From: a virus
DNA: 30,713 nucleotides
Direction: 5' to 3' (one strand)
Virus record (IMG/VR): IMGVR_UViG_3300030104_002852
Span: 1 to 30,713 of that record
Shown here: positions 549 to 25,548 of the stretch, piece by piece
Layout: every line of letters starts with the position of its first letter
How positions within the stretch are numbered: position 1 is the first letter of the stretch
Program-made: the position numbers and the translations under genes
Notes under the pieces: model-generated
What the model was told of the DNA's origin: nothing
The model's database searches: none
The model's input: only the letters and a program-made list of their open reading frames with translations

Positions 549-755
549 TTAACCTATTTTTTTGATTGATTGATAATTACATTCAGAAGCCACATAATTA
601 ATGTGCTTTTGAGTTGTTACTGACCACCAGCCTAATGCTCTTACTTGTCTGTTCTTATGATCAATAGTAGCAACTTTAGTATTGTAACTATATACATTAT
701 TGCCTTCAACTCTTAAATTCATTTTATATTTTTCTAAATACATTTTAATCTCCAT
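549..755 (-). CDS. small conserved phage-type protein (LGWWSVTTQKHINYVA motif)
   Basis: A 68-residue protein containing NVYSYNTKVATI and LGWWSVTTQKHINYVA, a pattern I associate with small proteins of many phages that have no assigned function. Two starts are plausible: the ATG at 755, preceded by GGGAGG with 6-base spacing, and the ATG at 743, preceded by GGAGATTAAA like its neighbour. The longer form is listed. It is the first gene after the late-operon terminator and carries a GATC site (659-662), unlike the late genes. Confidence 0.75.
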   Translation of the reverse strand: MEIKMYLEKYKMNLRVEGNNVYSYNTKVATIDHKNRQVRALGWWSVTTQKHINYVASECNYQSIKKIG

Positions 756-862
756 TGTTAACCTCCCTAAAGTTCTAAATTATTTTTTAATTATCCAAAC
801 AAATATATATGTTTTTTATTTTTACTAAAGAGAAAAAAGTATATATAAAATATATGTATAAC
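756..862 (-). promoter_or_regulatory. AT-rich intergenic region, probable promoter of the left operon
   Basis: About 100 bases of very AT-rich DNA separate the late terminator from the gene at 549-755. Possible elements are TTGTTT (802-797) and GATAAT (796-791), but they are not correctly spaced with each other, and no convincing -35/-10 pair is present. The promoter call rests mainly on position after a strong terminator. Confidence 0.3.
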
Positions 863-886
863 AAAAAAGGCCCTAAAAAGAGCCTT
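863..886 (-). terminator. Rho-independent terminator of the late operon
   Basis: On the minus strand AAGGCTCT (886-879) pairs with AGGGCCTT (874-867) over a TTTT loop. There is one mismatch in eight positions, and a further TTTT follows (866-863). It lies 27 bases beyond the stop of the last tail gene. This is a textbook intrinsic terminator in the direction of all genes here. Confidence 0.85.
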
Positions 887-913
887 AATTGTTGTGCGAT
901 TTGTATTGTTAGT

Positions 914-2101
914 TTACCATGTTTCTGTTATAACAAGGGAGGTTGAAAACAAGTTGTTTGCTACCTGTTTGAAGGAGGGTTTGTTAGTTATTCTGCATAA
1001 TGCAAATTCTAAATCATCTGCCTGTGCATCAGGGCAAAAGATAAAAGCCAAGTTGCCCATGTGGCTGAGTTTAAAAAATGAAGATAATGAAGTATCAAAG
1101 TTGTCTACTGAGTAGTCATCTTCAATTCCATCTGTAAAAGTATCATTATAAAATTTATTAGCATTGCCTGCTTTGTCAAACATATTATCATCAGATATAA
1201 AAGATAAGCCTACTGTCCATTCTCTCCTTGCTCTATTTGACACTGTTGTATAATCTCTGCCATTTGTTTTTTGGAGTGTCCATGCAGGCAAATCGCCAAA
1301 GTTTGGAACACCTAAATAGTTAATATTAGAAATTGTTGAGCCACCTATTGTAGACACTTTTTTAATTCCTTCTTGTTTGTAAGTAGCAGTAGCTTGCAAC
1401 TCAAAAGCATGCTCAGGTTCAAAAAAAATACCACATGTATTTGCCCCTATAGTTATTTTATTGTTAAGCCAGCCTGCCCAACTTGCATCTGCTTTTCTGC
1501 TAATGTTTATAAATTCTGAAACATTAAATCTTCTATCTTCATTATTGTTTTTGCCTGTTATTTCCCATAAAGAATAGCCATCATATTTAGCCTTTCCTGT
1601 TGTGCCTGCATTTGAACTAGTTGCTGTAGCTTCATAATTAACAATTTCTTTGAAAGCATTAGGATTGCAATATAAATTATTTCCTAAACCATCGCTACCT
1701 ATAAATCTTTGACACATGTGAATTTCAGAGCCAAGTTCTTCTTGCAAACTTGCAAACTTGTGACCTAGAACACCTGCATACCAACCTGAAGAATGATGTT
1801 CGTCAGCACTTGCATTATAATATTTTAATAATTTATTAATTTCATAATCTTGAACTAATTCTTGCCCATCAAGGTTTGCAGGCTCTTGATTTATTCCAAA
1901 TCTAAAAGCTGCTTTATAATTGTTATAGTCACCTTGAAAATTATTAGGTTGGTAGGGGTTCATTGTATGTACTTTTTCTTGATTAGGTTCATCAGATGTT
2001 AGCAGTCCTGAAGATGTTGTGCCAAAGTATTTCCCTATACTTTTTAAATAACTTAGTATATCTGCATAAAATCTTGGTTTGCCTATTTGTCTTTTTGCCA
2101 T
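914..2101 (-). CDS. distal tail/virion structural protein, unknown family
   Basis: A 395-residue soluble protein, the last gene of the late operon. It has no signal peptide or membrane span. It begins MAKRQIGKPRFYADILSYLK and is rich in Gly, Asn and aromatic residues, as is common in beta-rich virion proteins. AGGAGTAAAA precedes the ATG. Position directly after the tail-tip genes and before the terminator suggests a tail-tip, fibre or receptor-binding role, but no domain is recognisable. Confidence that it is a gene is high; the role is inferred from context only. Confidence 0.6.
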   Translation of the reverse strand: MAKRQIGKPRFYADILSYLKSIGKYFGTTSSGLLTSDEPNQEKVHTMNPYQPNNFQGDYNNYKAAFRFGINQEPANLDGQELVQDYEINKLLKYYNASADEHHSSGWYAGVLGHKFASLQEELGSEIHMCQRFIGSDGLGNNLYCNPNAFKEIVNYEATATSSNAGTTGKAKYDGYSLWEITGKNNNEDRRFNVSEFINISRKADASWAGWLNNKITIGANTCGIFFEPEHAFELQATATYKQEGIKKVSTIGGSTISNINYLGVPNFGDLPAWTLQKTNGRDYTTVSNRARREWTVGLSFISDDNMFDKAGNANKFYNDTFTDGIEDDYSVDNFDTSLSSFFKLSHMGNLAFIFCPDAQADDLEFALCRITNKPSFKQVANNLFSTSLVITETW

Positions 2102-2109
2102 TTTTACTC

Positions 2110-2541
2110 CTAAATAACTGACTTCTTTATTGTTTTCTTTATGATGGTCTGTTGTTCTATTTCTTCATATTTTCTGCTATCTATTTCAAATTTAGAATTA
2201 CTGCTTGACCACAAACTATCATTTTTAAATATAATATCTGCATTATATTGTTCTAAATTCCAATTAACTACTACACATTTTGTTATGTTTAAAGTACCAA
2301 CATAAGTAAAAAGTAAAGGAGTAAATTCTGATTGTGATAAACTATAGATAACAATCTTTTTTTTGCCTATTTTTATAGTCCAACCATCTCCTAATTTTTT
2401 TATAGCTTTTATTGCACCAGTGTAATTAATTTCAATTCCTGCAACTTCTCCTGTTGTTTTAAAAAAAACATTCCCATTACTATAATCTATTTTTCCCCTT
2501 ATAGATTGTGGTTTGTTTAGTCTGTCTATTTTATCTATCAT
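2110..2541 (-). CDS. small tail-region protein, unknown
   Basis: A 143-residue protein whose ATG overlaps the TGA of the tail-hub gene (ATGA), so it is probably translated by coupling; no Shine-Dalgarno is visible. The sequence suggests beta strands (GNVFFKTTGEVAGIEINYTG), while the C-terminal 25 residues are charged. It lies between two tail-tip genes and is probably a virion or tail-assembly component. I do not recognise a family. Confidence 0.55.
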   Translation of the reverse strand: MIDKIDRLNKPQSIRGKIDYSNGNVFFKTTGEVAGIEINYTGAIKAIKKLGDGWTIKIGKKKIVIYSLSQSEFTPLLFTYVGTLNITKCVVVNWNLEQYNADIIFKNDSLWSSSNSKFEIDSRKYEEIEQQTIIKKTIKKSVI

Positions 2542-4991
2542 TCGTTTACAATCCTTTGTACCATAGCAACAACATCTAAAACATTTAAATTTCCATCTTG
2601 ATTCATATCAGCTGATTCAATTTCTTGTTCAGTAAAATCTGCAACTTGCACAATTGAATTTACAATTCTAACTATATCAAGGATATTTACAAAGCCATCT
2701 TGGTTAATATCTCCTGTCAATTCTGTATATGTGCCATTATCTGTATATGTGCCATTATCTGTATATGTGCCATTATCTGAATTAAGCTCATATATTGATT
2801 CAAAAGTTGTATTTCTCCAAATTAAAGAGCTGTAACTCATGTGGTGTAATTGTATAGCTTTTATTTTTACTGAATTAACTGATTTATTGGTTTCTGTTAC
2901 CATAAACAAAGGCAGTATATATTGCCCAGACCTTATAGGCATATCATTCATAATATTATCTAAGACATATTTTTCACCATATACTTTCTTTCCTAATATC
3001 ATTTTGTCAAATTCTACAAGGTCACCTATTTCTAAATTAAAATATTTCAAAGGCAATGTAAGCTCTACTATATTATGCTGATTTTGTCTAAATTGCAATA
3101 TGTGTTCAGCTAAATCTTTAGCTGTAGCACCATCTTGAATATATTTATTTTCAACAATAACATGAGAATCTATGTGGTTAATTGTACCATCTTCATTTGT
3201 TTTTACACCATAATAATTATCTGTTTGAAGATTTTGTGCAGTACCTGATTTAAAGTAACCACCATTAGCTTGTATTTTGCCTGTAGACTTAACAAAACTA
3301 TCTAAGCCTATATCATAGCCATACCTGACCTCAGTTTCAGTTAATATATCTTTTATAGGTGTTCTTTTGAAATTATATTTTATAACATCATACTCAAATA
3401 TTTTATATATATCTTCATTACCATTATAGGTATTTTTTATTGTATTAAATTTTAAAATATCAGATGATAAGCTTGTTATTAATTTTGAGCTTTGTGATAT
3501 TTCAGATATTAATTTTTTAGCACCTATTTTTTCAAATAAACTAAAATCTAAATTCCAGTCTATGTTTTCACCATTGCTGTTAATCTTGTGTTCTAATCTT
3601 GCCTCTCTAAGCAAATCAAAATTTACTGCCTCTGAATAACCTAATTCTTGCTCTAACAAATGAAAAATTACATCACAAGGTTTTTGTATTAATTCACTTG
3701 ATGGAGTATATTCACTAATTATTGGTTCATCAGGTAATATAGTTTGTATTGTTGGAATATCAGTATAAATTATTTTTGATGAACTCTCCATTGAATCAAA
3801 TTGTGTTTGTGCATCTTCTGAATATTGCACATAAGCTGAAGAATCTAAAGAATTCATAATAACTATAATGCTGTAGCTATCTGTTTGACTAGATATTTGT
3901 GTGCTTGTGTATGTTATAGGCACTTCAACTGATTCTCCTGCACTTATTGTATAAGATGTTTCATTGTACTCTATAGTTCCATATTGTGCTGCATCTTCTT
4001 CATCTAAACTAGCCTGCAACATATCATTAAAAGAAGTTAAATCATCTTCATAGTCAAAAGCATAGACATTAAATGTTCCATTAAAATCTGCATTTGATTC
4101 AACAGTAAAGATTCCTTCAGCAGTTTCTCCTGTTTCAACAAATAATTGTAAGTTTGATAAGCCTGTAATTGATAAGCTAAAGTCATAAGTTGGGGCTTGT
4201 AATACAGGTGCAGGATATGGTAAAAAAGCATAGCTTTTATTAGCTGAACCAATATGCTTTCCTGCTCCAATCGTAAATTGCCTTGACCCCACCCCATCAC
4301 TTACATATCCAATTGCTAAATTTAAGTGGATTAATACTTCTGTTTGTATTTGATATAAATTTATATATCTTTCTTGATATTCTTGAGTTTGATTTTCATC
4401 ATAAAATGGAGCATCTTCATTAATTGCCAAATCCCCTAGACCATTATTTAGGGTACTCCATATTGTGTTATTTTTAGCAGAAGAAGTATATCTTATTCTT
4501 TTTACACCACCTACTGTATCTATAGACCCTACAAAAAAAGGAATATCTACATATACTGATTCATTTTCAATGTTCCAATAAGGCTCTAAATAAGCCATGT
4601 GCTCTCCATTAGAGCTGTAACTTTCGTGTTCAACATACTCAAGCCCTGTGCTTGGTGGAGTCATCTTTAAATAATGTCCTAAAATTTTCTCATTATAATC
4701 ATAAACATAACCTATATTGCCTTCATTGTTGTAAGACATAGCATTACTACTAATTCCTGTAACTTCTGTAGTCCAGTATGTAGCCCAATCATAATTGTTG
4801 TATCCTTGACCTAAAGCCATAAGCCCTTCAATAAAAAATAACTTATCACTTGCATCAGGATTGTTTACAATATCAGTAAGCTTAGTCCATTCTGAAGTAG
4901 CTGTATTTCCATCATGAGGTACAATTTCTATTTTTAAAGTGTTATTGCCAATAATTATATCATTAACTTTTCTCCAAATAAGGGCTTGCAT
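2538..4991 (-). CDS. tail-tip/baseplate hub-like protein with C-terminal dockerin-like domain
   Basis: An 817-residue protein. Around residues 600-700 it carries a segment typical of tail-hub or Tal-like proteins (VELTLPLKYFNLEIGDLVEF). The C-terminus has three tandem DNGTYT units (about 739-756), then two calcium-binding loops of dockerin type: GDINQDGFVNILDIV (about 760) and ADMNQDGNLNVLDVV (about 794). Each shows the DxNxDG..N..D pattern followed by a hydrophobic helix. Type I dockerins bind cohesins in cellulosomes; in a phage tail such a domain could mediate Ca-dependent protein or glycan contact. The start ATG overlaps the previous stop (TAATG), and its ribosome binding site is formed by the Gly codons (GGAGGA) that end the upstream gene. 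Hub identity is moderate; the dockerin-like repeats are clear. Confidence 0.65.
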   Translation of the reverse strand: MQALIWRKVNDIIIGNNTLKIEIVPHDGNTATSEWTKLTDIVNNPDASDKLFFIEGLMALGQGYNNYDWATYWTTEVTGISSNAMSYNNEGNIGYVYDYNEKILGHYLKMTPPSTGLEYVEHESYSSNGEHMAYLEPYWNIENESVYVDIPFFVGSIDTVGGVKRIRYTSSAKNNTIWSTLNNGLGDLAINEDAPFYDENQTQEYQERYINLYQIQTEVLIHLNLAIGYVSDGVGSRQFTIGAGKHIGSANKSYAFLPYPAPVLQAPTYDFSLSITGLSNLQLFVETGETAEGIFTVESNADFNGTFNVYAFDYEDDLTSFNDMLQASLDEEDAAQYGTIEYNETSYTISAGESVEVPITYTSTQISSQTDSYSIIVIMNSLDSSAYVQYSEDAQTQFDSMESSSKIIYTDIPTIQTILPDEPIISEYTPSSELIQKPCDVIFHLLEQELGYSEAVNFDLLREARLEHKINSNGENIDWNLDFSLFEKIGAKKLISEISQSSKLITSLSSDILKFNTIKNTYNGNEDIYKIFEYDVIKYNFKRTPIKDILTETEVRYGYDIGLDSFVKSTGKIQANGGYFKSGTAQNLQTDNYYGVKTNEDGTINHIDSHVIVENKYIQDGATAKDLAEHILQFRQNQHNIVELTLPLKYFNLEIGDLVEFDKMILGKKVYGEKYVLDNIMNDMPIRSGQYILPLFMVTETNKSVNSVKIKAIQLHHMSYSSLIWRNTTFESIYELNSDNGTYTDNGTYTDNGTYTELTGDINQDGFVNILDIVRIVNSIVQVADFTEQEIESADMNQDGNLNVLDVVAMVQRIVNE
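2723..2776 (-). repeat. three tandem 18-bp repeats in the tail gene
   Basis: Three exact direct copies of CTGTATATGTGCCATTAT (2723-2740, 2741-2758, 2759-2776) encode DNGTYT units joining the hub protein to its dockerin-like domain. Being a multiple of three and perfectly identical, the array can change copy number without breaking the frame, so it is a likely variable-length linker. Confidence 0.9.
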
Positions 4992-6973
4992 TAATATCCT
5001 CCTCCACCTGACCCACCTGACCCACCTAGCCCACCTGACCCACTTGATTTAGCTATACTTCTTGTTTGTTTTTTATATCTTTTTTTGCCTTGTTGTTTCA
5101 TAGGTTTTGATATATTAGCTTCCCTAGATTGCATTTCATTCATATCTTGCCTTACAACAAAGTCAGATTCACCTGATAGCACAACAACCTCATTACCTGT
5201 ATATCTTCCACCAAGGTCATCAACCCTGCCTTCAACTGTTGCAAATAAACCATAATCCATAAAATCACTTAATATTGCTCTTTTGAAAACTCTTAAATAA
5301 TTAAATTTTAACCAATCTATGCCCATTCTTCCACCTTCAGTTGCATATATGTAGGGTTCAATGCTTGCTCCATCTGCACCTCTACCATAACCACCTATAG
5401 TAAAATGTGTAAATCCTATATCATCAACAACTACTTCATATTGACTAGGGTTTGTTGAGCTATCAGAATAAAATTCAACTTTGTCATAAGCAAGGGTCAA
5501 AGGGTTTGCATTTTCATCTTGCACAGTATCATCAGGTGTTAGTTCATCAAATCTTGTAAACCTAACAACTTTATTTCCTATTTGAAAGTGTATTTTTGGT
5601 CTGCTATAAGACCATTCTCCTGAGATTGTATAGAAACCCAAAACCTTTACAGCAGCATTTAAATCATATAAAATAGATGCTTTGTTGTCTATTATTTTAG
5701 TTTGTTTTTCTCCTGTAGCATCAGGCAATGTTTCTACTTGTGTTAAAATATTGTTAGAATTACAAAATGGTTCTGTTTGCATTCTTAAAGCATTTCCTGA
5801 TACATAGGCTTCATATAGATAATAACCATCAGTGGCAGAGAAAGGAGTATAAATAGCATGGTCATTTTTCCCCCAAAGCCATGTTTTTTGTTCTGCGAAG
5901 GGAGCAGGCACTCCTCCAAAATCTTGTTGAGTAAAATATGAGCCATCTACTTCAGTTGTATCGTTAATTCCATTAATGTCTGTTGAGCATACTATAGGAC
6001 AAGTAACATCACCTATAGCTGATAGATTTGCATATTCTTCTCCAAAATATGGAACTAAAAAATCTTCTCCATACAATTGTACAACTATACTCAGCCATTG
6101 GTGTCTTGTCCTTCCTGATACAAAAGTTGGTTTTGATTCTTGATAAACTTCAACAAAATTATAAGATATAGGTGATGAGCCAAAAATTGCTTGACCTTGT
6201 GAAGTTTCACCTTCAATATCTATTGACCTAGAAAAAATAAATTTATTATCATCAGTTTCTTCAAACTGGTCACGATTTGCACTCGCAAAAGGTGTGTTTG
6301 ATTTTATTTCATTAAATTTTACAGGGTTTTTAGTGATTTTTAAATATACATCATCTAAAAATACTTTAGGTGTAATCGCACTTTTTATAAAAAAATCATC
6401 AGCTACAGAGGCATAATTTTCCTGCCCATCATTTGGCGTGTAGATTAGTGGACTTCTTTGGACTACACCAAAAACAATAGGAATAGGTTTGTTTCTGTAT
6501 TTTTCAGGCACTCCTTCAGAAGGTGAATATCTTAATGGCAAATCTTTATTTAATGTTAATTCTGTTCTATCTTCTGCACTTATTGTAATATTATCTATAT
6601 TTTCATTTATACTAGCAACATATCCTGAATACACTTTAAGGCAATCATCTAATGATTGTGCAGATTGAGATTTGTAATATATATTTAATTTTTTATTCAT
6701 TACTGAAGGAGAAAACAACCTTTCTCCTAAAGTTTTGTCATTATATATAACATTTATTAAAGATATATTAACAGATGAAATTTTAAATATTTTTTTTACA
6801 GGGTCAATAGATTCTTTTATGTTACCAATATTTTTAAGAAGTGGGTCATAATTTTCTCCTAAAACAACTTTAGATGTTGAGAGAAAAATTCTATCATCTA
6901 TAACCAACAATGGTATTAAGTAAGTGTCTTTGCTTTGTATATCATTTTTAAATTTTTGAGGTAAATCTAACAT
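4991..6973 (-). CDS. tail-tip structural protein with Gly-rich C-terminus
   Basis: A 660-residue protein directly after the tape measure gene, the usual position of distal tail and tail-tip components. The N-terminal half reads as beta-rich (VSGYVASINENIDNITISAE region, about 115-135) and the last 20 residues are almost only Gly and Ser (GSGGLGGSGGSGGGGY), probably a flexible or low-complexity tail. That tract is written with near-identical GGTGGG/TCAGGT units, so the DNA is locally repetitive (about 4998-5042). The start is coupled to the tape measure stop (TAATG). I cannot name a specific family; role inferred from position. Confidence 0.55.
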   Translation of the reverse strand: MLDLPQKFKNDIQSKDTYLIPLLVIDDRIFLSTSKVVLGENYDPLLKNIGNIKESIDPVKKIFKISSVNISLINVIYNDKTLGERLFSPSVMNKKLNIYYKSQSAQSLDDCLKVYSGYVASINENIDNITISAEDRTELTLNKDLPLRYSPSEGVPEKYRNKPIPIVFGVVQRSPLIYTPNDGQENYASVADDFFIKSAITPKVFLDDVYLKITKNPVKFNEIKSNTPFASANRDQFEETDDNKFIFSRSIDIEGETSQGQAIFGSSPISYNFVEVYQESKPTFVSGRTRHQWLSIVVQLYGEDFLVPYFGEEYANLSAIGDVTCPIVCSTDINGINDTTEVDGSYFTQQDFGGVPAPFAEQKTWLWGKNDHAIYTPFSATDGYYLYEAYVSGNALRMQTEPFCNSNNILTQVETLPDATGEKQTKIIDNKASILYDLNAAVKVLGFYTISGEWSYSRPKIHFQIGNKVVRFTRFDELTPDDTVQDENANPLTLAYDKVEFYSDSSTNPSQYEVVVDDIGFTHFTIGGYGRGADGASIEPYIYATEGGRMGIDWLKFNYLRVFKRAILSDFMDYGLFATVEGRVDDLGGRYTGNEVVVLSGESDFVVRQDMNEMQSREANISKPMKQQGKKRYKKQTRSIAKSSGSGGLGGSGGSGGGGY

Positions 6974-8790
6974 TATCCTATACCTATATCTCCACCTTTT
7001 CTCAAAGCATCTTGTATAAGAGGTATCGCTTCATCTTCAATAAAATCTCTACTTAACACATTGCCTTGAAAGATTACAGTACCACTACCTCTATTTGCAC
7101 CTTCATTGTTTGTAGGTTCAATATCAACATACTCTGCACCTGCTTCACCTGCTAAAAATAAAGTAGGTTCTGTAACTACTCCATCAAAACCTTCTGCTGC
7201 TTTTACTAGTCCCATTTCTTTAACAGCACCTTGCATTAAACTTCCAACCACACCACCTGCTGCAACACCACCTATTGCACCAAAAATACCAAACTTTTTA
7301 AAGCTATCTGCAATAAAAGCTGCAACTGCTTCTTGTGCTTTAGCTACAATAAACTGACCTGCTGCTGCCCCTGCTGCATCTCCTGCTGATTTAAAAGCTG
7401 CTCCTGTTGACATAGCACTTGCAACTTGTGCTTGTGTTAAATCACCAAAGGCAGCACTGACTTTATTGTATGCTCCACTTAACTTGCTTAGTGTTGCTAT
7501 TTCTAGCTCTGCATTTTCTACAGATTCAATCTTTAAATCATTGTTTTTTCTAAATTGCTGATTCTGAACTTCAACAACTTCAATATCTTCCTGCTCTTGT
7601 TGTGTTATTCTTGCATTAATATCTTCTAAATTCTTTTTTTCTTCAGCTAATTGTGTGACTATAGTTAATTCATCTATTAATCCCTTAATTCTTTTATCTC
7701 TTTCAGCAATAGCATCTTCTATGTTTTGAGCCTCATATTGTGCTGCTTTTATTTCATCATCTGACATTTTGCTTCTGTTTTTATGCAAATCTTCTTCAAC
7801 TTTTTCAAGCCTTTTCATTCTTATAGCTCTTTTATCTTCATAAACTTGTATAGTTGCTTGTAATTGTTCAGCACTTCTTGTGCCTTCCCTATCTCTCTCT
7901 AGCTGTCTTATATTTTGTTCTGCTAATATTTTTTCTAAGCCTAAAACTTCACCACCCATATTTTGTATTTGTCTGATTCTTGTTTCTAAATCAGTTTCTG
8001 TCATTCTCTTAAAGAAGTTGCCAACTGCACCTGCTGCACTTTTTACATAGCCTGTCAATGTATTAATAGCAGGTGATAAAGCCTCACCAATAGATTGAAA
8101 CATGCCATCTGAAGCTACAGACATTTGTGCTATAGCATCTGATGTTGTTAATTGTTCATCACCTAGTGCTGCAACTTTTTCTGTAGCTGAATCTAAAGCA
8201 GCATTATTAAAAGCAATTTTCTTTTCTTGGTCTGTTAATTGTGATACTGTTTTACCTATTGATGCAGCATAATCTTCATTAGCTTTTTCAGTTGAAACTA
8301 TAATACCTAAATTGTCAAGCATCATTATAGACTGCCTACCCATACCAGTAACTAAAGAATCAACAGCATCTTTAGTATCTACACCAAGAGATTTACCTAG
8401 TCTTTGTGCAGTATCAAAAAGTTGAGCCATTTCTTCTTCTGAGCTAGCAACTCCAAGTGTCATAGCTTGGTTTGCCATTCTCATCAAATCTACATCATTA
8501 ACTGTTCCATCTAGTGCTTTTCTATATTTACTTAATGCACTACTTGTTCCACCCATAGCTTTATTTAAATTATCAAATGGAGTAGATAATGCTTCTGCTT
8601 TTGTCGCTAAATCTATAGATTGCTTAAATCCATTAATAATACCTTGAGCTCCAAAATATGCTGCACCTGCAATGCTTGCTGATTTAGCAAGTTTTCTCAT
8701 ACTAAGCCCTACTTTATTTGTACCCTTAGCAGCTTTTTTAGCTCCAAATAGCTTTATTCTTATTCTTTGTGTAAATGTTTTTACTGCCAT
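6973..8790 (-). CDS. tail tape measure protein
   Basis: A 605-residue protein. The N-terminus is basic and alpha-helical, followed by Ala-rich helices, a long charged coiled-coil section (about 280-420, repeated KxxE/ExxK runs) and hydrophobic Gly/Ala helices (about 455-525) of the kind that may insert into the host membrane. The C-terminal EPTLFLAGEAGAEYVDIEP is typical of phage tape measures. It follows the frameshifting chaperone, which is the canonical order. At roughly 0.15 nm per residue, the rule known for tape measures, the tail would be about 90 nm long. AGGAAG precedes the ATG. Confidence 0.88.
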   Translation of the reverse strand: MAVKTFTQRIRIKLFGAKKAAKGTNKVGLSMRKLAKSASIAGAAYFGAQGIINGFKQSIDLATKAEALSTPFDNLNKAMGGTSSALSKYRKALDGTVNDVDLMRMANQAMTLGVASSEEEMAQLFDTAQRLGKSLGVDTKDAVDSLVTGMGRQSIMMLDNLGIIVSTEKANEDYAASIGKTVSQLTDQEKKIAFNNAALDSATEKVAALGDEQLTTSDAIAQMSVASDGMFQSIGEALSPAINTLTGYVKSAAGAVGNFFKRMTETDLETRIRQIQNMGGEVLGLEKILAEQNIRQLERDREGTRSAEQLQATIQVYEDKRAIRMKRLEKVEEDLHKNRSKMSDDEIKAAQYEAQNIEDAIAERDKRIKGLIDELTIVTQLAEEKKNLEDINARITQQEQEDIEVVEVQNQQFRKNNDLKIESVENAELEIATLSKLSGAYNKVSAAFGDLTQAQVASAMSTGAAFKSAGDAAGAAAGQFIVAKAQEAVAAFIADSFKKFGIFGAIGGVAAGGVVGSLMQGAVKEMGLVKAAEGFDGVVTEPTLFLAGEAGAEYVDIEPTNNEGANRGSGTVIFQGNVLSRDFIEDEAIPLIQDALRKGGDIGIG

Positions 8791-8791
8791 A

Positions 8792-9450: not shown

Positions 9451-9495
9451 ATTTAATCTCCATTTAGTATGTTAATATACTAAACAAGATTATGT

Positions 9496-10787: not shown

Positions 10788-10794
10788 ATTTCTC

Positions 10795-12327: not shown

Positions 12328-12329
12328 TA

Positions 12330-13892: not shown

Positions 13893-13901
13893 TTTATCTC
13901 C

Positions 13902-14678: not shown

Positions 14679-14686
14679 CTAATCTC

Positions 14687-16561: not shown

Positions 16562-16562
16562 A

Positions 16563-16721
16563 TCATTCTCCTTTATTTTCTAATCTTTTGACTTTAGCCC
16601 TGAGGCTTCTGACCTCAGTTTCAAGCCTTCTTATCTTTAAACCAAAAGCATTTAACCTTACATCTAATTCACCTTTAACTATGGCTATTGCTTTCTTATC
16701 CTGTAACCTGCTTCTAATCAT
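16563..16721 (-). CDS. 52-residue basic coiled-coil peptide
   Basis: The ATG at 16721 lies within the end of the MscS-like gene (overlap 8 bases) and TGA is at 16565-16563. The C-terminal two thirds are heptad-like and highly charged (LKIRRLETEVRSLRAKVKRL). No membrane segment is present. It sits between two membrane-protein genes of the lysis region; a role as a cytoplasmic partner is possible but unproven. Confidence 0.6.
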   Translation of the reverse strand: MIRSRLQDKKAIAIVKGELDVRLNAFGLKIRRLETEVRSLRAKVKRLENKGE

Positions 16722-17082
16722 TGCCTTCCCATTTGCTTAAATCTAACATCTGCAATGGTCTTTCTATTGTGTGGTCTTTGAGCTTATCATTTTGGATTTG
16801 TATCTTTGTGCCACCTTTGACAAAAGGCTTGCCATTGGCTGTACCAATATCATAGGCAAAAAAGGTTGTTTTCCATAATCCAACTCTAATAACTCTTGCA
16901 GGTCTATCATCTAAAATAACCACATCATCTGTATTAATATCCTTCCCTAAAAAAACTTTTATTCCTTCCACAACACTTTCTATTGTTGATTTGAAAAGAA
17001 GAAATGCTATGCCTGAAAGAAATAACCATAACCAATTACCTAGAAAGCCCTCTGCTTGTTTTTGTAATTCTTCTTCATTCAT
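16714..17082 (-). CDS. miniature MscS-like membrane protein
   Basis: A 122-residue protein with one membrane helix (about 15-31, GNWLWLFLSGIAFLLF), an amphipathic continuation (32-46) and a soluble beta part (52-110). The beta part reads DDVVILDDRPARVIRVGLWK, then KIQIQNDKLKDHTI. This resembles the middle beta domain of MscS channels, where D-x-V-x-I, a G/A-x-V-x-x-I-G turn and I-P-N-x-x-L recur after the pore-lining TM3. MscS proteins normally have about 280 residues and three helices; here only a TM3-beta unit remains. The ATG overlaps the stop of the holin-like peptide (ATGA). It might form a pore or a membrane scaffold during lysis. Resemblance is by eye. Confidence 0.55.
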   Translation of the reverse strand: MNEEELQKQAEGFLGNWLWLFLSGIAFLLFKSTIESVVEGIKVFLGKDINTDDVVILDDRPARVIRVGLWKTTFFAYDIGTANGKPFVKGGTKIQIQNDKLKDHTIERPLQMLDLSKWEGND

Positions 17083-17219
17083 TTATTGTAAAGTTTATAA
17101 ATTTTTAAACATATATATATAAAAGTTGCTAACCCTACCATAACTCTAACAGCTACTGGCAACCATTCTATCCATGTAACTGTCAGACCACTTAAACTTG
17201 CCATTAATGTCTTAGACAT
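17079..17219 (-). CDS. 46-residue single-span membrane peptide, holin-like
   Basis: The ATG at 17219, preceded by AGGAGAAGTT, opens 46 codons; its TGA overlaps the next ATG (ATGA). A hydrophobic helix covers about 19-38 (LPVAVRVMVGLATFIYICLK) and the C-terminus is basic (KIYKLYNK). Size, topology and coupling to the MscS-like gene close to the lysozyme gene suggest a holin or a holin partner. No family can be named with certainty. Confidence 0.6.
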   Translation of the reverse strand: MSKTLMASLSGLTVTWIEWLPVAVRVMVGLATFIYICLKIYKLYNK

Positions 17220-17281
17220 AACTTCTCCTAAATAAAGGAAGCACACAACACACTAAATAAGAGAAGGTTTGCACTTTGGAG

Positions 17282-18478: not shown

Positions 18479-18872
18479 ATTTCATTTGGTCTGATAGTTT
18501 CTTTGCTCTATTGGGTGTCTGTTTAGCCCACTTGCTATTTAGCATTTCAACACTAGCTGCTCTATAGTCTTTCCTCATAATATGGTCTATAGTTTTAGAA
18601 AATTTAGATACACCCTTTACACCAATTTGATAGCACATTTCTATAATAACATCTTGCACTTCTACAGGGCAATCTTGTAAGAATGGAAATTGGTGGTGTG
18701 CTCTTAATTTAAGTTCTGCTAGTTTTCTTTCTAGAATCATATCACAAATATCTTCACCTAGCACTAAATCCTTAATAGCAAAGCCATAGCCTATAGTATC
18801 ATAACCTTCAGTACATTTATAGACTTTAGACCTAAACCCTTCTGATAGTTTAATGTTTTCTATTAGTGACAT
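18468..18872 (-). CDS. endolysin, T4-type lysozyme (GH24)
   Basis: A 134-residue muramidase cleaving the glycan backbone of peptidoglycan. KLSEGFRSKVYKCTEGYDTI aligns with the T4 lysozyme active site: E11, C20 in place of D20, and T26, at the exact E-8-D/C-5-T spacing known for phage lysozymes. C-terminal motifs (VIIEMCYQIGVKGVSKF; NSKWAKQTPNRAKKL) match the family's W...Q.P.RA region. There is no signal peptide or SAR segment, so export must depend on a holin; the nearby membrane peptides are candidates. It starts by TAATG overlap with the previous gene. Confidence 0.9.
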   Translation of the reverse strand: MSLIENIKLSEGFRSKVYKCTEGYDTIGYGFAIKDLVLGEDICDMILERKLAELKLRAHHQFPFLQDCPVEVQDVIIEMCYQIGVKGVSKFSKTIDHIMRKDYRAASVEMLNSKWAKQTPNRAKKLSDQMKYAR

Positions 18873-19180
18873 TACCCTGCTGATTTTGAATATTTTTTAG
18901 GCTGTGCATCTGATATAATAGTAACACCACAAGCAAGGACTGCTGCATTAGCTGCAAAGATTTTGTCTGTTGCTGCTTTTCTTATTATCACAGTATCTAA
19001 TCCTTCTAAACTAAAAGTACCAATATCTGTTCCATCAGATGTGTTTAATGTTACTAAATGCTCTGTTCCTGCAGCAGCAGAATTGTATAGCCTAACAAAT
19101 TCACTTGAGCCTACATTTGAAGACCCTGCATCATCTGTTCCTAAAGCAGCTTCTGTAGTTATTGGTGAAAATATAATCAT
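18872..19180 (-). CDS. small virion-type protein, possible decoration protein
   Basis: 102 residues from the ATG at 19180, which has GGAGG about 10 bases upstream; the longer reading to 19204 lacks a site. The sequence is small, Ala/Thr/Ser-rich and beta-like (EHLVTLNTSDGTDIGTFSLE, then DTVIIRKAATDKIFAAN). Proteins of this look near the capsid gene often decorate virions, but I recognise no specific family. It is coupled to the lysozyme gene at its 3' end. Confidence 0.5.
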   Translation of the reverse strand: MIIFSPITTEAALGTDDAGSSNVGSSEFVRLYNSAAAGTEHLVTLNTSDGTDIGTFSLEGLDTVIIRKAATDKIFAANAAVLACGVTIISDAQPKKYSKSAG

Positions 19181-19182
19181 AA

Positions 19183-19347
19183 TTAAACACCCTCCACTTT
19201 GCAACCTTTAGACTCATACATCTTAATCTCTGCATCTACTAAGCTATCTCTTTTAATTACATTGCCATTAGGCTTTGTAATTTTGTAGCTCATTGCTTTT
19301 ACTTCTTTCTTTACTTCTTTTTTTACTTCTTTCTTTTTATCTGACAT
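19183..19347 (-). CDS. 54-residue Lys/Glu-rich small protein
   Basis: The ATG at 19347 has AGGAG about 9 bases upstream and the frame ends TAA at 19185-19183. The N-terminus is a repeated KKEVKKEVKKEVKA tract, then a compact part (YKITKPNGNVIKRDSL...). The repeated KKEV is visible in the DNA as near-identical units at about 19295-19340. Function unknown; a small head-associated protein is possible. Confidence 0.6.
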   Translation of the reverse strand: MSDKKKEVKKEVKKEVKAMSYKITKPNGNVIKRDSLVDAEIKMYESKGCKVEGV

Positions 19348-19350
19348 ATT

Positions 19351-19617
19351 TTATTCTCCTTGAATAACATTACCTTTATCATCAAAACTTACACCACCAA
19401 AGATGCCTATGTTATCTACACCTTTTCCTTTTTTATTTCTTTCAATTCTGTCAGAAACCTCTTGCACATAATCCATATATTTCATTTTCTTGCCTTTATA
19501 GTATGCTTGTTGTCCTTTATCTTTATTTTGAACAAGCTTTAGTTTTTTGTCAGGGTCAAGCTGACAACCAAAGGTCTTATTATTTAGGTTTCCTATATCT
19601 TTTTTATTGCTTGACAT
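19351..19617 (-). CDS. hypothetical 88-residue hydrophilic protein
   Basis: The first gene after the capsid-gene terminator. It is highly charged (about one quarter Lys), with GKKMKYMDYVQEVSDRIERN in the middle and VDNIGIFGGVSFDDKGNV at the C-terminus. The ATG at 19617 lies only 8 bases beyond the terminator hairpin and has no free Shine-Dalgarno, so expression may be low or coupled to read-through. An alternative internal ATG exists at 19485. Family not recognised. Confidence 0.55.
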   Translation of the reverse strand: MSSNKKDIGNLNNKTFGCQLDPDKKLKLVQNKDKGQQAYYKGKKMKYMDYVQEVSDRIERNKKGKGVDNIGIFGGVSFDDKGNVIQGE

Positions 19618-19621
19618 TGTA

Positions 19622-19651
19622 AGTAAAAGGGTGGCTTTTACACCACCCTTT
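19622..19651 (-). terminator. intrinsic terminator after the capsid gene
   Basis: AAAGGGTGG (19651-19643) pairs perfectly with CCACCCTTT (19634-19626) over an 8-base loop, with T-rich sequence TTTT in and just after the stem end. It lies 10 bases after the capsid stop codon. This fits a partial terminator or 3' stabiliser that sets capsid mRNA above the downstream genes. Confidence 0.7.
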
Positions 19652-19661
19652 CCTTTATCTA

Positions 19662-20555
19662 TTATGAGATTTCAGTATGTATTTCTACACCATGTAAATC
19701 AACTAATTCAGATACTGCCCAATATCCATTGGCTACCAAATTAGTAGATGCACCTAGCTCATTTCTTTCAGTTTTCAACTCTATGAAGTTTCCACCACCA
19801 AAATCAATGAAACCTACACCTATTGCAGTTTTTGAATAGATAGCACCTTTCTTTCTACCTGTAGCACCATCAATTACTTGAGGTGAAGTGAAGAAATCAA
19901 TACCTGCTAAACTAGTTACAAAACCTGCTCTGTAGAATTGCTCACCTACAAAACTAGCTCCACCATGAGCAAATGCACCAACACTTGAAGCAGTTGCTGT
20001 AGTAGCTAGCTCATTAGATAAACCAAAAGAGCCATACATTTGTTGTGGGTGAAGAACTGCTGAGTAAGGTCTTGGAGCATCATTAGTTTCTAAAGAAGCT
20101 ACTGCATCCATTATATCTAAAAACCTTAAGCCATCATCAGTACCTTTGCTTGTAGCAAAACCATCAAATAATGCACATATATTAGCATCCATTTCTGCTG
20201 CTACTGCATTACCTAGAACTTGTCCTGCATTTACCATTAAAGCATCTGCATTACCATGAGCTGCTAAGTCAGTAACTCTTGCATTAATGTGGTTTCTTAA
20301 TACTTCCACATTAGTTGCAGCAGTTGTAATGCTAGTTGCTGCTACTTCTGTATCTTCATCTCCTGTAGCCTCATTAGTTACATCTGATACACCTAGTTTT
20401 GCATATACTGGGAATTGAACAACATTAGAGCCTGGTTGTGCTGCTTGTAGTGAAACAGTGCCAGGAGTTACTGCTGCTTTGTTGAATTGTACTATTGCTG
20501 CTGCAATGGTTTTTCCTAAACCACCTGCTGCAACACCTACATCTGTATTTGCCAT
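19662..20555 (-). CDS. major capsid protein (HK97-like fold likely)
   Basis: A 297-residue protein, Ala/Gly-rich, after a scaffold-like gene and before a terminator. It has an N-terminal helix (AAAIVQFNKAA), an extended region rich in T/A/E (about 55-85), a long helix (about 100-130) and domain segments such as PRPYSAVLHPQQMYGSF (about 160-177) and YRAGFVTSLAGIDFFTSPQV, the pattern of HK97-fold capsids ('...V.hP.q...' then '...G.i.G..v..s...'). Length is typical for capsids with a separate scaffold. The 5' leader (20556-20640) holds AAGGAAACTGTAAA before the ATG. Confidence 0.82.
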   Translation of the reverse strand: MANTDVGVAAGGLGKTIAAAIVQFNKAAVTPGTVSLQAAQPGSNVVQFPVYAKLGVSDVTNEATGDEDTEVAATSITTAATNVEVLRNHINARVTDLAAHGNADALMVNAGQVLGNAVAAEMDANICALFDGFATSKGTDDGLRFLDIMDAVASLETNDAPRPYSAVLHPQQMYGSFGLSNELATTATASSVGAFAHGGASFVGEQFYRAGFVTSLAGIDFFTSPQVIDGATGRKKGAIYSKTAIGVGFIDFGGGNFIELKTERNELGASTNLVANGYWAVSELVDLHGVEIHTEIS

Positions 20556-20640
20556 TTTACAGTTTCCTTATATTACACATTCTTTCAACTGCTAATAGCC
20601 TTCATTTTGAATGTGCTGCTATTTAAAGCTTGTTATTAAA

Positions 20641-21210
20641 TTACTTAATGTAACCTTGAACATTCTGCTCTAAATACTTTTCAGCACCTTTTGGGTCTTT
20701 CATAGCGAACTCTTGTATGCTATCATAACCACCAAAATCACCTTGTGGTGCATTTGAAGCTGCTCTGTTTGTATTTGTAGGAACAGAATTTACTTTAGTT
20801 ACTTTATTTACATACAACTCTAGTTTGTCAAGTGATAGTCCTTCTGCAATAGATTTGTCAGTATCTTCTGTTAGTGATTCCATTAAGGAATTTCTCTTAT
20901 TAGACTTGTACTCCTCGTATTCCTTTACAACAACTGAGGACTTTTCAAGTTTAGCATTAGCTTCATCAAGAAGTGTTTTATATTCACCCTGCTTTTCTAA
21001 CTGCTTCTGCCTAGCTGATTCTTGGTCTGCTTTAAACTTATCTAATTGAGATTGAAGGTCTGATACTTGAGATTTATAATCATTCTTTTGAGTATTAACC
21101 TCATCAAATCTTGACTTAGGGATTGCATCTGATACATTGTTTTGACTAGCTTCTGTGCTAGGTTGATTTACCTGATTTGCTTCAGTTTGAGTTGTGTTGT
21201 TTTCTGACAT
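20641..21210 (-). CDS. head scaffolding protein
   Basis: A 189-residue acidic/basic helical protein with a low-complexity N-terminus rich in N, Q, T and S, a coiled coil at about 40-110 (DYKSQVSDLQSQLDKFKADQ and onward) and a C-terminal part ending AEKYLEQNVQGYIK. Scaffold proteins of this build lie directly upstream of the capsid gene in many phages and are lost during maturation. No protease gene is evident next to it. GAGG precedes the ATG. Confidence 0.78.
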   Translation of the reverse strand: MSENNTTQTEANQVNQPSTEASQNNVSDAIPKSRFDEVNTQKNDYKSQVSDLQSQLDKFKADQESARQKQLEKQGEYKTLLDEANAKLEKSSVVVKEYEEYKSNKRNSLMESLTEDTDKSIAEGLSLDKLELYVNKVTKVNSVPTNTNRAASNAPQGDFGGYDSIQEFAMKDPKGAEKYLEQNVQGYIK

Positions 21211-21284
21211 TTGAACCTCTTTTGTGAGTAATTAGTTTATAAAACTTCGCTATAATATAATTAAAAATACTTAATAAAAAACAT
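21211..21284 (-). promoter_or_regulatory. AT-rich gap, possible promoter for scaffold and capsid
   Basis: A 74-base gap, unusual among genes that otherwise overlap. It contains TATTAT as a possible -10 and a T-rich -35-like stretch about 18 bases upstream, but neither matches consensus well. Strong demand for capsid protein makes an internal promoter plausible. Confidence 0.25.
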
Positions 21285-21773
21285 TTATTTTTTCTTACCT
21301 ATGGTAATAGTGTGTTTTCCTTTAGGCATTCTTTTCTCCAATTCTGCATTTATAGCAGGCAAAACCTCATCAATTACTTTAGGATTTATAGGATACTGCT
21401 TGCTTGTTAGTATCCTTCCTCCATCTCTTAACCAATCTAATTTTTTAGCATGTGCTGACCAACCTATGTAAATAGAATTTTCTTCTACACTAAAACTAGA
21501 ATCAGTATCTAACATTAAATCACCTGAAACAACAGGTGCTCTAGAATTAGAATATGAACCATCTTGCCTTTTAAGTAAGTTAGCCTTTTTTTTATTTTCA
21601 TAAGACTTGCTTTTGTATTTAGGAAATTTTCTATCATCTGCCATTTTAGGATTTGATTTATCAAATGTTATCTTTCTGTATTCATTAACTATTATAGCTT
21701 CAAATATTGTATATGATTGTTCGTCAAAAATTGGGTCAGGCATTTTAAACTTTTTACTTGTTTTTTTAGCCAT
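21285..21773 (-). CDS. virion morphogenesis protein (gpG/HK97 gp10-like)
   Basis: A 162-residue basic protein. The C-terminal part follows a pattern of Mu gpG and HK97 gp10-like neck proteins: APVVSGDLMLDTDSSFSVEE, then SIYIGWSAHAKKLDWLRDGG, i.e. a 'L..TG.L..S......v.iG....YA...' sequence. These proteins act in head completion or tail attachment. It is coupled to the MuF-like gene by a TAATG overlap, with AAGGA upstream. Confidence 0.55.
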   Translation of the reverse strand: MAKKTSKKFKMPDPIFDEQSYTIFEAIIVNEYRKITFDKSNPKMADDRKFPKYKSKSYENKKKANLLKRQDGSYSNSRAPVVSGDLMLDTDSSFSVEENSIYIGWSAHAKKLDWLRDGGRILTSKQYPINPKVIDEVLPAINAELEKRMPKGKHTITIGKKK

Positions 21774-22504
21774 TAATTTTTATCCTTTTCTATAATCTTT
21801 CTAGCACCTTCAGCATCATGTCCAAACTTATCTTGAACTGCTATCTCCCATTTATGCCTGCAATTATAGCCACCACCTCTTGTGAATACATCACTACCAA
21901 ATGCTGATAATATTTCTGCTTTTGTAAGTTCGCCCCTTGACATCATGTCTAAGCACTCAGGTCTAGTTTTCTCATCTAATGCACCTATATACACATATTC
22001 TGTATCTTCAGGCATCTTGTCTATCATTACTTTTGTAACACTTCTGCTATACTCATTCATGGCTGTATCTATTAATGTTTGCAATTGTCTAGGGCTCAAT
22101 GCTCCTTGACCCCTAACTGCTTCTAATACTGTTTGTACTGGACTACCTGCTATGATGCCATTAACTACTTCTTTTTTAATTATCTGTGCCATGCTATCTA
22201 ATGTGTTAAGCAAAGAGCCTGTGCTATAGTTTTTTAGTGCTTGTAAGGTTTCTTCAGATAGTGCTGCAAAGCCTTGTATTGTTTGCAACATTACACCATG
22301 TGAAGCGTTATAAATATTAATAGCATTAGCTGATTTAGCTCTTACTATTTCCATCACATTTAAATCTTCTATAAATAACAAAAATTCTTCAGCAGACTTT
22401 TGCCCTTTTAGTTTGTATAATTGTTCTATAGTTTCTTCTTGTACTTGTAGTAGAATATCTGTAACAAGTTCTGAGTTTTGCTCTATAAATAGTTGGTCTG
22501 ACAT
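21773..22504 (-). CDS. MuF-like minor head protein
   Basis: The ATG at 22504 gives 243 residues; a GTG at 22522 would add six. It is helical through most of its length, with a C-terminal Mu gpF-type module: RQLQTLIDTAMNEYSRS, then YVYIGALDEKTRPECLDM and GGGYNCRHKWE. The D.KTR..C and N.CRH pattern is the family hallmark. MuF proteins are internal head proteins encoded right after the portal. The place, next to portal and before scaffold, is as expected. Confidence 0.75.
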   Translation of the reverse strand: MSDQLFIEQNSELVTDILLQVQEETIEQLYKLKGQKSAEEFLLFIEDLNVMEIVRAKSANAINIYNASHGVMLQTIQGFAALSEETLQALKNYSTGSLLNTLDSMAQIIKKEVVNGIIAGSPVQTVLEAVRGQGALSPRQLQTLIDTAMNEYSRSVTKVMIDKMPEDTEYVYIGALDEKTRPECLDMMSRGELTKAEILSAFGSDVFTRGGGYNCRHKWEIAVQDKFGHDAEGARKIIEKDKN

Positions 22505-22511
22505 TTGCCCA

Positions 22512-22814
22512 TCAACTCCCACTTAATAAACTTGTAACTGATTTCCTTGATTGCCAAAACTTGCATGACCAATATCTAGCCTTTGTCTTGTCTGTTGGTT
22601 TGTTTGAATCGCACTTATGCCTAGCTCTAAAACTTCTTCTCCTCTCATCAGAGAATCTTTTAATAGATAAGTTAGGGTCACCAAACATTACTTTTTTTAC
22701 TTTATCACCTGATTTAACATATACTTGAAATTTCTTTCTACCATAACCTGCCTGCCCCTTAGTGATTCTACTAGGTTTATCTAGGGTTACTTTTCTACCT
22801 TGATATTCTGCCAT
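22512..22814 (-). CDS. conserved phage head-region protein (FGDPN...SFRARHKCD...YWSC)
   Basis: A 100-residue basic protein with the signature KKFQVYVKSGDKVKKVMFGD, then RRSFRARHKCD and RYWSCKFW. I know this pattern from many phage genomes, where it lies in the head block without an assigned function. Two cysteines and a His near the centre could bind metal. Its ATG overlaps the previous stop (TAATG). It is probably an assembly or packaging accessory. Confidence 0.65.
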   Translation of the reverse strand: MAEYQGRKVTLDKPSRITKGQAGYGRKKFQVYVKSGDKVKKVMFGDPNLSIKRFSDERRRSFRARHKCDSNKPTDKTKARYWSCKFWQSRKSVTSLLSGS

Positions 22815-22918
22815 TACTTCTTAGTTTTTCTTCTAACTTTTCTTTTTATAGATTTTTTAACCATTCTTTTCTTTGGTCTGCCTACTTTACTTCCATAAGT
22901 TCCTTTACCTTTTGGCAT
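22814..22918 (-). CDS. 34-residue basic peptide
   Basis: The ATG at 22918, preceded by AAGGAGAATAT, opens 34 codons ending TAA at 22816-22814. The sequence begins MPKGKGTYGSKVGRPKKRMV and ends in Lys/Arg runs. Small basic peptides with this MPKGKGTYGSK start are frequent beside portal genes in phages. It may bind nucleic acid or neutralise DNA in the head; function unknown. Confidence 0.7.
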   Translation of the reverse strand: MPKGKGTYGSKVGRPKKRMVKKSIKRKVRRKTKK

Positions 22919-22927
22919 ATATTCTCC

Positions 22928-24286
22928 TTATACTGGTCTAGTTAATTGTGATAATAATGTGTTTTCTTCTTCTACTTCTTCATCATCTTCTGCTAAGTCT
23001 GCACCACTTCTTTCAAATAAATAATCCTCTGCTGAATCTCTATCAGGAAATCTGTCAGGGTCTTTCTGCATTAGTATATCTGCTTTATCTATTAAACCAT
23101 TAGATAGCTCCCATTCCCACTTATCTCTTTGCTCTTTGTCTGACAATACTTCCATACTTTCTTCAAAGTCTACCTTCTCAAGTTCTCCTGCATCTTTACC
23201 AAAATCAACTGCAATGATTAGCCTTTCTAGTTCAAAAAGTTGTTTCTCTATCTGCCTCCACTTAATAACATCAGATATTCTTTCATCAGTTAGCTCTTGG
23301 TTTCTTAGTTTAATAGCTACACCTGATTGTGCAGTAGTGCCCTCAACGAAGCTAATGTCTATGTGGTAGTTTTGTGCTAACATCTTATAAGCAGTAGTAA
23401 CTGCACTTGTTATTGATTCTACTGTGTTAGGTGGGCTTACTAGATTCATAGTACCATCTGCACCTAAAAAGCTAATCTTATCAGGCCCAACATCTAAATC
23501 ATCTTTCTCTATCATGCTTCCATTCACATAAATATAACCAAATGATTGGAACATTATGTTAGCATTCTTATTGGTTTCTGCTACATTGATAAGCAAATTA
23601 GTTTGTATTAAATCAGAGCTTGCATCTGTATCTAGGTAGCTTGATTCAGGCTTTCCATCTCTCCAACACTCAACAAATGGCAATACACCATAAGGATTAA
23701 TCATGTCAGGGTTAAGCTCATCTGTATAAATCTTTCCATTGTTATCAAATGTGTAGGTATTTTCTTTATCCCAGTACACATACAATTCAGGAGTGCCATC
23801 AAGTACACTATCTCTGCTTGATATAGGATAAACAATAGCAGTAGGCTTTAGTGGGTCATCACCATCAAATATAGGCTCATAATCAAATATAATATCATAT
23901 TCAATATGCTGCTCATCTTTATCATTGTATCTCATGCAAGGCTTTATCAGTACAGCATCAAGTAGGTTGCACATTCTTTCTGCTCTTTGCAGCTTAAAGT
24001 CTTTGTGGTGAAACATCAGAGGAGTTTCTTCTTTTGAGTAGGTTCTTGTAGGTGGCTTCATGTACACTAAGCTAACCCTGTCAACAATTCTTTTAGTAAC
24101 ATTGATATTAGCAGAAGGCACTTTTTCAAATAAAGTAGAATCAAAGTAACCCATAGTGTATGGCAAAGACCTGCCTTTATAGTATTCTAAAGCATCTAAT
24201 CTACTTTCTTTCCACTTGTTTTTTCTTTTCTGACTAGCATCATATTTAGCATTTAAGACAACTAGCTCTGCACTTGATTTTATCAT
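22928..24286 (-). CDS. portal protein
   Basis: A 452-residue protein forming the dodecameric DNA gate at the head vertex. It directly follows terminase and starts in ATGA overlap with it. It has the usual N-terminal helices (ESRLDALEYYKGRSLPYT), a central segment of strands (about 120-220), a long helix (about 300-350, VTTAYKMLAQNYHIDISFVE, then GVAIKLRNQELTDERI) and an acidic C-terminus. The GVAIK...E motif and total length fit the SPP1/Mu-type portal group. Confidence 0.85.
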   Translation of the reverse strand: MIKSSAELVVLNAKYDASQKRKNKWKESRLDALEYYKGRSLPYTMGYFDSTLFEKVPSANINVTKRIVDRVSLVYMKPPTRTYSKEETPLMFHHKDFKLQRAERMCNLLDAVLIKPCMRYNDKDEQHIEYDIIFDYEPIFDGDDPLKPTAIVYPISSRDSVLDGTPELYVYWDKENTYTFDNNGKIYTDELNPDMINPYGVLPFVECWRDGKPESSYLDTDASSDLIQTNLLINVAETNKNANIMFQSFGYIYVNGSMIEKDDLDVGPDKISFLGADGTMNLVSPPNTVESITSAVTTAYKMLAQNYHIDISFVEGTTAQSGVAIKLRNQELTDERISDVIKWRQIEKQLFELERLIIAVDFGKDAGELEKVDFEESMEVLSDKEQRDKWEWELSNGLIDKADILMQKDPDRFPDRDSAEDYLFERSGADLAEDDEEVEEENTLLSQLTRPV

Positions 24287-25548
24287 AATCTGTTAATACT
24301 CCCCAATGTTTGTTTGATGATTGGTTTTTCCCAATGAACTGCATATCCTAGTGCATCACTCATGTGTGTAATATCTTTGTTGCTCTTATCTATTTCTCTA
24401 GTTCCTTGTTTATTTGCTACTTTTTCTAAGTCCTCAATAAGTGCTTTACACTTTGGATCTATTATCAGGTTGCCATCTAATGCTCTATTGACTGCATTTA
24501 CTCTATCAACTACAAGTGGATTAGTCTTTAATGCTTTAATCTTAAAGCCACTTTTCATAAGTAAATCTATATCACTAAACATAGCTGAACTTCCTCTCTT
24601 TACTCCTGTTGCATCAGGATATGCTACATATTCACTATTTGGGTATTTCTGTCTAATTGTATTAGCCATTCTTTCTGTTAGTAAATCACCACTACCACCA
24701 TGTGATAAGGCTATACAATCAAACACTTTTATTTGGGGTTGTTGTTCGTATAATTGAAATAAAACTGCACATTCAGGCTCACAGTTGAAGTCAATTCCAA
24801 TTCTGACTGGTCTTGATCTATCATAACTGACTTCTGATACATTGGTATCTCTGTTGAACTGATAGTATGTTTGACCTTGTTGTAAATTGACAAATTCACC
24901 TAATGAGTATGCCTTGAGTAAAGTTTTATCATAGTTTTCTTCTAAAAGTTTTAAATAAGACTTTGGTAAATATACATTATCTTTTGTTTTTCCCCTAACT
25001 AAAAATTTGTTATCATCTGCCTTTTCAACCATTAGGGTGTAAGTGTACTTCATTCCCTCAGGTGTTGTGCAGATAAATATCTCAGGGTTTTCACAATCTC
25101 TCATTCTACCAAGTGCTTTGTTAAATGCTAATTCACAGTATCTATAACTGGATATATCAAACTCATCAAAGCCACAATAAGAAAGAGATACACCAATAAT
25201 CTTATCAGGCTTAACCATTTGGAATATCTTAATGTTTCCATAAGCTGTTTTGATTGTGTGTTTAGATACATTGTAATTGTAATCAATGCCTTTATCTCTT
25301 AGTATATCAAGAAAGGGTGGTATAAATACTTCTTCTGCTAATGAGTAGGTAGGATATATAATCCAACCATTGCTAAAACCTTCTTTATTCTTTCTTGTAA
25401 TGTGATTGATAAATGTCTTATGCAGGAAGCTATATGTTTTGCCTGATCCAAATCCACCAACATAAGCATTGATTTTCTTTTTACTTTTCAGGAAATCCCA
25501 TTGGTGTGGGAAATAATCTTCTTTGTGTATTGTTAAGTTAGATGCCAT
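24283..25548 (-). CDS. terL: terminase large subunit
   Basis: A 421-residue DNA-packaging motor. The ATPase part has Walker A GGFGSGKT (about 31-38), Walker B-like YCGFDEFD and the coupling motif FICTTPEG. The nuclease part has GIDFNCEP, YPDATG and HMSDALGYAVHW with the expected acidic residues. The ATG at 25548 is used; the in-frame TTG before it is a weaker choice. It overlaps the small subunit gene by 11 bases. It carries three GATC sites (24456, 24815, 25445), unlike everything downstream to 662. Confidence 0.93.
   Translation of the reverse strand: MASNLTIHKEDYFPHQWDFLKSKKKINAYVGGFGSGKTYSFLHKTFINHITRKNKEGFSNGWIIYPTYSLAEEVFIPPFLDILRDKGIDYNYNVSKHTIKTAYGNIKIFQMVKPDKIIGVSLSYCGFDEFDISSYRYCELAFNKALGRMRDCENPEIFICTTPEGMKYTYTLMVEKADDNKFLVRGKTKDNVYLPKSYLKLLEENYDKTLLKAYSLGEFVNLQQGQTYYQFNRDTNVSEVSYDRSRPVRIGIDFNCEPECAVLFQLYEQQPQIKVFDCIALSHGGSGDLLTERMANTIRQKYPNSEYVAYPDATGVKRGSSAMFSDIDLLMKSGFKIKALKTNPLVVDRVNAVNRALDGNLIIDPKCKALIEDLEKVANKQGTREIDKSNKDITHMSDALGYAVHWEKPIIKQTLGSINRL

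Follow-up and report, generated by a model that had tools for sequence, protein, structure and literature searches.

Why does a phage genome lack one tetranucleotide over most of its length and carry it at ordinary frequency on both sides? The question is raised by a window of 30,713 bases, positions 1–30713 of a 31,422-base (31.4-kb) IMG/VR record of a marine tailed phage. Its main genes all lie on the minus strand, and comprise early genes, the small and large terminase subunits, portal, scaffold, capsid, tail with tape measure, and distal tail. Direct counting located 27 GATC sites in the window, at 328 and 659 and then 25 from 24456 to 30329. This count reproduced every coordinate listed by the first-pass annotation, which had claimed that no GATC lies between 659–662 and 24456–24459. 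A Markov-corrected tetranucleotide count, also suggested there, was run at maximal order from trinucleotide content. It gave an expectation of 50.6 for 663–24455, where no GATC is found, 21.9 for 24456–30713, where there are 25, and 2.2 for 1–662, where there are 2. An observed/expected ratio below 0.1 at an expectation of at least 15 is thus reached by the late block (0/50.6) and not by the early block (25/21.9). No 4-mer with an expectation above 5 other than GATC is missing from the gap, and if the 28 sites of the full record were scattered uniformly, a gap this long would arise with a probability of ~2e-16. When ten words were tested in ~60 related contigs, GATC in the window was by far the strongest mosaic. 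Base composition was ruled out as the cause of the split, the GC content being 0.331 vs 0.324. Avoidance in the window is therefore limited to 663–24455, and is genome-wide in three relatives (G002, G004 and G046).

The GATC-purged block (663–24455) is the late module, from the portal gene to the distal tail gene, and the unpurged block (24456–30713) holds the terminase, small terminase and early genes. The right border (24283–24456) runs from the 4-base overlap of the portal and terminase genes (24283–24286) up to the first GATC. On its late side lies the portal protein gene (22928–24286, minus strand, 452 aa), assigned by gene order with no PHROG match, whose relatives are 54–95% identical. 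On its other side are the genes for the terminase large subunit (24283–25551, minus, 422 aa; phrog_2, E 3.5e-36; Terminase_6N), a probable terminase small subunit (25538–25849, minus; phrog_309, E 2.4e-7), a predicted TET/JBP-type 2-oxoglutarate/Fe(II) dioxygenase (25849–26583, minus; PF12851, E 9.8e-13, over the cut-off, with an HxD motif, YHQD) and a ParB-like protein (26571–27170, minus; PF02195). The first gene of the early block in the window is at 30022–30612 (minus; phrog_11717, unknown function). The late module includes the major capsid protein gene (19662–20555, minus), the tape measure protein gene (6973–8790, minus; phrog_3779) and, as the last late gene before the left border, a gene at 914–2101 (minus) placed in the distal tail region by position. 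The left border (662–914), defined by two GATC sites only, lies between the gene at 549–755 and this tail gene, with a GGCC at 869–872 inside it. In the tail region, the C-terminus of the protein encoded at 2538–4991 resembles, by eye, a dockerin type I repeat with DxNxDG motifs. A scan with the neighbouring protein (4991–6973) found no relative, and megablast of window positions 1–25000 against sequenced phages found no similar DNA.

In the four relatives that cross the gap between early and tail genes (G001, G002, G004 and G012), the gene order places the two ends of the record next to each other. The early/tail spacing is ~1.1–1.6 kb in these genomes vs ~1.7 kb from the two ends of the window combined. 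The GATC-bearing right part and the left end (1–662) therefore form one block, and the record is a near-complete genome. Ten N at 30714–30723 of the full record, just past the window, identify it as a scaffold; this N gap lies away from both borders.

The split extends to other words. GGCC is the next most depleted palindrome in the gap (2 vs 15.5 expected, compared with 7 vs 7.8 in the right part), and its largest gap, 869–23483, nearly matches that of GATC. GCGC occurs 0 times vs 2.7 expected in the purged block and 3 times vs 0.9 in the unpurged block; it accounts for none of the 36 CGs in the late block and for 3 of the 15 in the early block.

Loss of GATC is seen at the level of codon choice. 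Synonymous-codon shuffling of the late genes gave 56.0 ± 5.4 GATC with a minimum of 39 in 300 shuffles, against 0 seen, and shuffling of the early genes gave 22.3 ± 2.8 against 19 seen. The first-pass annotation had noted that late genes write Asp before Gln or His as GAC and never GAT in the cases checked, and had concluded that selection acts on codons. In aggregate, all 32 late Asp codons that precede a C-starting codon are GAC (0 GAT), which bears this out; the equivalent early codons are 14 GAT and 3 GAC, and late Asp codons before other codons are 414 GAT and 64 GAC. Taken together, the shuffles and the Asp codons indicate that the GATC loss is real, acts on codons and is restricted to one block.

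We then compared the window site by site with its relatives (~100 related contigs from IMG/VR scans with terminase, portal and capsid, including some 50 records examined in full). In the late block, 69 columns carry GATC in at least two relatives and the window keeps 0 of the 69, vs 29–36% retention at late columns for the control words AGCT, CTAG and CATG. Of 22 GATC columns in the early block, it retains 8 (36%), a rate like that of the control words. The commonest plus-strand replacement of a late GATC is GGTC, corresponding to a GAT-to-GAC change on the coding strand. One relative, G001, aligns unbroken across 23006–25598 at 90% identity; 4 of its 5 early GATC sites are common to both genomes, as against 0 of its 8 late sites. 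Another, G031, shares 88.6% identity with the window along 6 kb of late genes and has 19 GATC there, none common to the window. Its major capsid protein is 99.7% identical to that of the window, and its capsid gene contains 2 GATC, against none in that of the window.

The nearest relative changes at ~24.3 kb. On the portal side, G013 (90–98%) is ahead of G001 and L015 (84–94%); on the terminase side, from ~24.2–24.6 kb on, G001 and L015 are at 92–98%. The N-terminal part of the terminase is closest to G012 (97.8% over 135 aa), in which GATC and GGCC are normal. G013 covers portal to terminase at 88–93%, with a break of its own close to the junction. Our search found no purged late-module donor more than 97% identical, and the closest late relatives (G031, G032 and G013) bear GATC.

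GATC is polymorphic within the clade, being absent everywhere from some near-complete relatives and present throughout others. Seven relatives have none, early block included (G002, 30.7 kb; G004, 30.0 kb; G046, 29.7 kb; G006, G024, G021 and G044), and GATC occurs in both blocks of G001, G025, G012 and others. The GATC-free state has to change nine times on a 75-row portal tree, and well-supported branches force eight of these changes. Between G016 and its three closest neighbours, at 94–95% DNA identity, GATC differs by 6–10 vs 0–1 sites, with control words mostly shared. The tree changes and the differences between such similar genomes show that the switch between purged and unpurged states is fast and repeated. 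Repeating the comparison in relatives, as the first-pass annotation had proposed, thus yielded wholly GATC-free and wholly GATC-bearing sisters; no other contig of at least 9 kb has an early/late GATC partition. Weaker heterogeneities of other words do occur in relatives, with borders elsewhere.

A phage-encoded nuclease or methylase was rejected as the cause. No gene cluster tracks GATC among 29 near-complete relatives, and no perfect gene association was found for other words in this set, which has few genomes per class. Dam (PF05869) is found in G001 only and MethyltransfD12 in none of the relatives scanned; both Dam and MethyltransfD12 (PF02086) are absent from the window record, which may miss a small part. 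That no phage gene follows the purge points to the host. In G001, which bears GATC, two fragments within 16577–17003 match PF05869; their frames differ or are interrupted, and they may be the remains of a decayed gene.

In summary, the portal-to-tail block has lost all GATC and, for the most part, GGCC and GCGC; the terminase/early block together with the left end has not been purged. The blocks differ in signature and in nearest relatives, and their borders fall at gene junctions, the pattern of modular recombination. Based on these findings, we propose that the window is probably a recent natural recombinant, in which a late module purged under host restriction was combined with an early/terminase module from an unpurged lineage. 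The late module would derive from a lineage whose hosts carried Type II enzymes that cut GATC (DpnII/MboI-like), so that any site was costly; the same hosts probably also cut GGCC and GCGC. The early module would come from a lineage free of GATC restriction pressure. Exchange may have occurred at the portal/terminase junction and in the early/tail gap, either by replacement of the early/terminase block with that of an unpurged lineage or by transfer of the late block in the opposite direction. The recombinant would now live where GATC is uncut or protected. If the late block is now neutral, its lack of regained sites would imply at most ~1.5% substitutions per site since the exchange under a simple 4-base turnover model.

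Two of the causes offered by the first-pass annotation, GATC restriction acting on the donor of the late module and exchange of the early module with the terminase, agree with this proposal. They are supported by the wholly GATC-free and GATC-bearing sisters, the codon-level loss on the late lineage and the concerted change of GGCC and GCGC. More generally, synonymous loss of 4-bp palindromes, quick switching, different words in each genome and the lack of a tracking phage gene fit Type II restriction by changing hosts. Two scans for hosts by portal and capsid alignment in GTDB genomes found no relative.

The main rival, also among the causes offered by the annotation, is that an assembly joined the early region of an unpurged phage to the late region of a purged one. 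Related phages co-occur, the scaffolded record contains an N10 gap at ~30714, and the borders are near a well-conserved gene junction, all of which favour such a chimera. However, two false joins would be required because the GATC-bearing ends neighbour each other in the gene order of relatives, and the N gap is not at a border. A chimera would also leave to chance an unusual CG rule that the two blocks have in common. CG is depleted in both (O/E 0.06 and 0.09) without a split at the borders, and ACGT, TCGA and CCGN are absent among the 36 late and 15 early CGs of the window. Since these contexts make up ~27% of CGs in six pooled GATC-bearing relatives, the chance of their absence is ~0.01 for the early block. 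We therefore consider a chimera unlikely. We regard as the least probable of the alternatives the idea that selection acts on the late block only, the early block being protected or the first to enter the cell. This position-dependent exposure, which the annotation had listed as stepwise entry, matches the coincidence of the border with the early/late gene organization, yet the early block of fully purged relatives is likewise free of GATC, the late genes of unpurged relatives contain it, no other contig of at least 9 kb is split for GATC, and the weaker heterogeneities of other words are bordered differently.

The remaining alternative involves the dioxygenase and ParB-like cassette (25849–27170). 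Acquired with the early block, it would modify the DNA and render new GATC sites harmless, while the late genes kept their old state. Consistent with this, the cassette is located within the GATC-bearing block, close relatives do not have it, and many Type II enzymes are blocked when bases are modified, for example to 5hmC (PMC7653180). Most GATC-bearing relatives nonetheless lack it, G044 carries a TET gene and is GATC-free, and no cytosine methyltransferase was recognized among the window genes scanned. Moreover, how GATC reached equilibrium in this block without exchange is left unexplained, and the cassette is very unlikely to account for the split. A protective role for it is possible but unnecessary, and base hypermodification is a possible function of the dioxygenase. 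TET/JBP dioxygenases are rare in the clade, and together with the ParB-like gene that of the window has no close relatives (best 60%, L158 and L159). The related TET/JBP-bearing records G011, G044 and G047 all lack AGCT, which the window has.

Restriction-site avoidance itself is well known, and complete elimination was found in about one tenth of surveyed phage genomes (PMC6286503). As in the window, the non-temperate dsDNA phages of Rusinov et al. 2018 (PMC6286503) show near-complete synonymous loss of a Type II 4-bp site, with GATC a typical target. Avoidance in that survey is whole-genome, and the terms 'recombin' and 'mosaic' are absent from its text, whereas in the window it affects one block with a sharp border, which is unusual within one genome. 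Lactococcal 936-type phages (PMC4190342) are similar in that GATC restriction of the DpnII type is the pressure and close relatives differ. They are protected by an acquired Dam methyltransferase, unlike the window record, in which no Dam or D12-type gene was found. By capsid protein, the isolates nearest to the window are Pelagibacter phages HTVC111P, HTVC202P and HTVC026P and Phage DSL-LC06 (27–30% identity), with genomes of ~30–32 kb and the same terminase–portal–scaffold–capsid order. All four have CG and 55–127 GATC sites, unlike the late block of the window for GATC. The relation is remote, and no host is therefore inferred from them.

The proposed recombination has broader implications. 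The mark left by purging outlasts the pressure, and could serve to date and map exchanges between phage lineages and to reveal the restriction specificities of uncultured hosts. With two marks and a sharp border in one genome, recombination between phages of differently armed hosts becomes directly visible, and the purging rate could be measured in this clade, in which near-identical phages have several times independently lost different words altogether. We tentatively suggest, as a possibility we hold with less than even confidence, that the clade forms a natural collection of phages from which different sets of 2–4-bp words have been purged, one set per phage (GATC, CATG, AGCT, CTAG, GGCC, CCAG and CG), and in which each genome or block records the defences of past hosts. 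The window would then be a splice of two records, and CG loss in ~30-kb genomes would imply an undescribed CG-directed defence. A narrow literature search found no report of CG-free phage genomes.

Several words other than GATC vary across the clade. Seven near-complete genomes of 26–32 kb (G004, G005, G016, G039, G041, G048 and G056, with L164/L165, L166/L167 and L173/L174 as examples) are CG-free, with 0 CG vs 560–719 expected by base composition. Some short contigs are CG-free as well, and other relatives reach an O/E of up to 0.69. As CG drops, TG/CA rises only slightly (rho −0.61; 1.25 to 1.33), which is consistent with methylation decay or selection. Complete or near-complete loss was seen for CATG in G033, G036, G037, G040 and G045, for AGCT in G011, G036, G043 and G044, and for CTAG in G005, G015, G020, G045, G048 and G056. 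The non-palindromic CCAG/CTGG is lost in G009 (0/112), G040 (0/113) and G045 (0/110). It is also low in the late genes of the window (29 vs ~83 in synonymous shuffles) and less so in the early genes (11 vs ~19).
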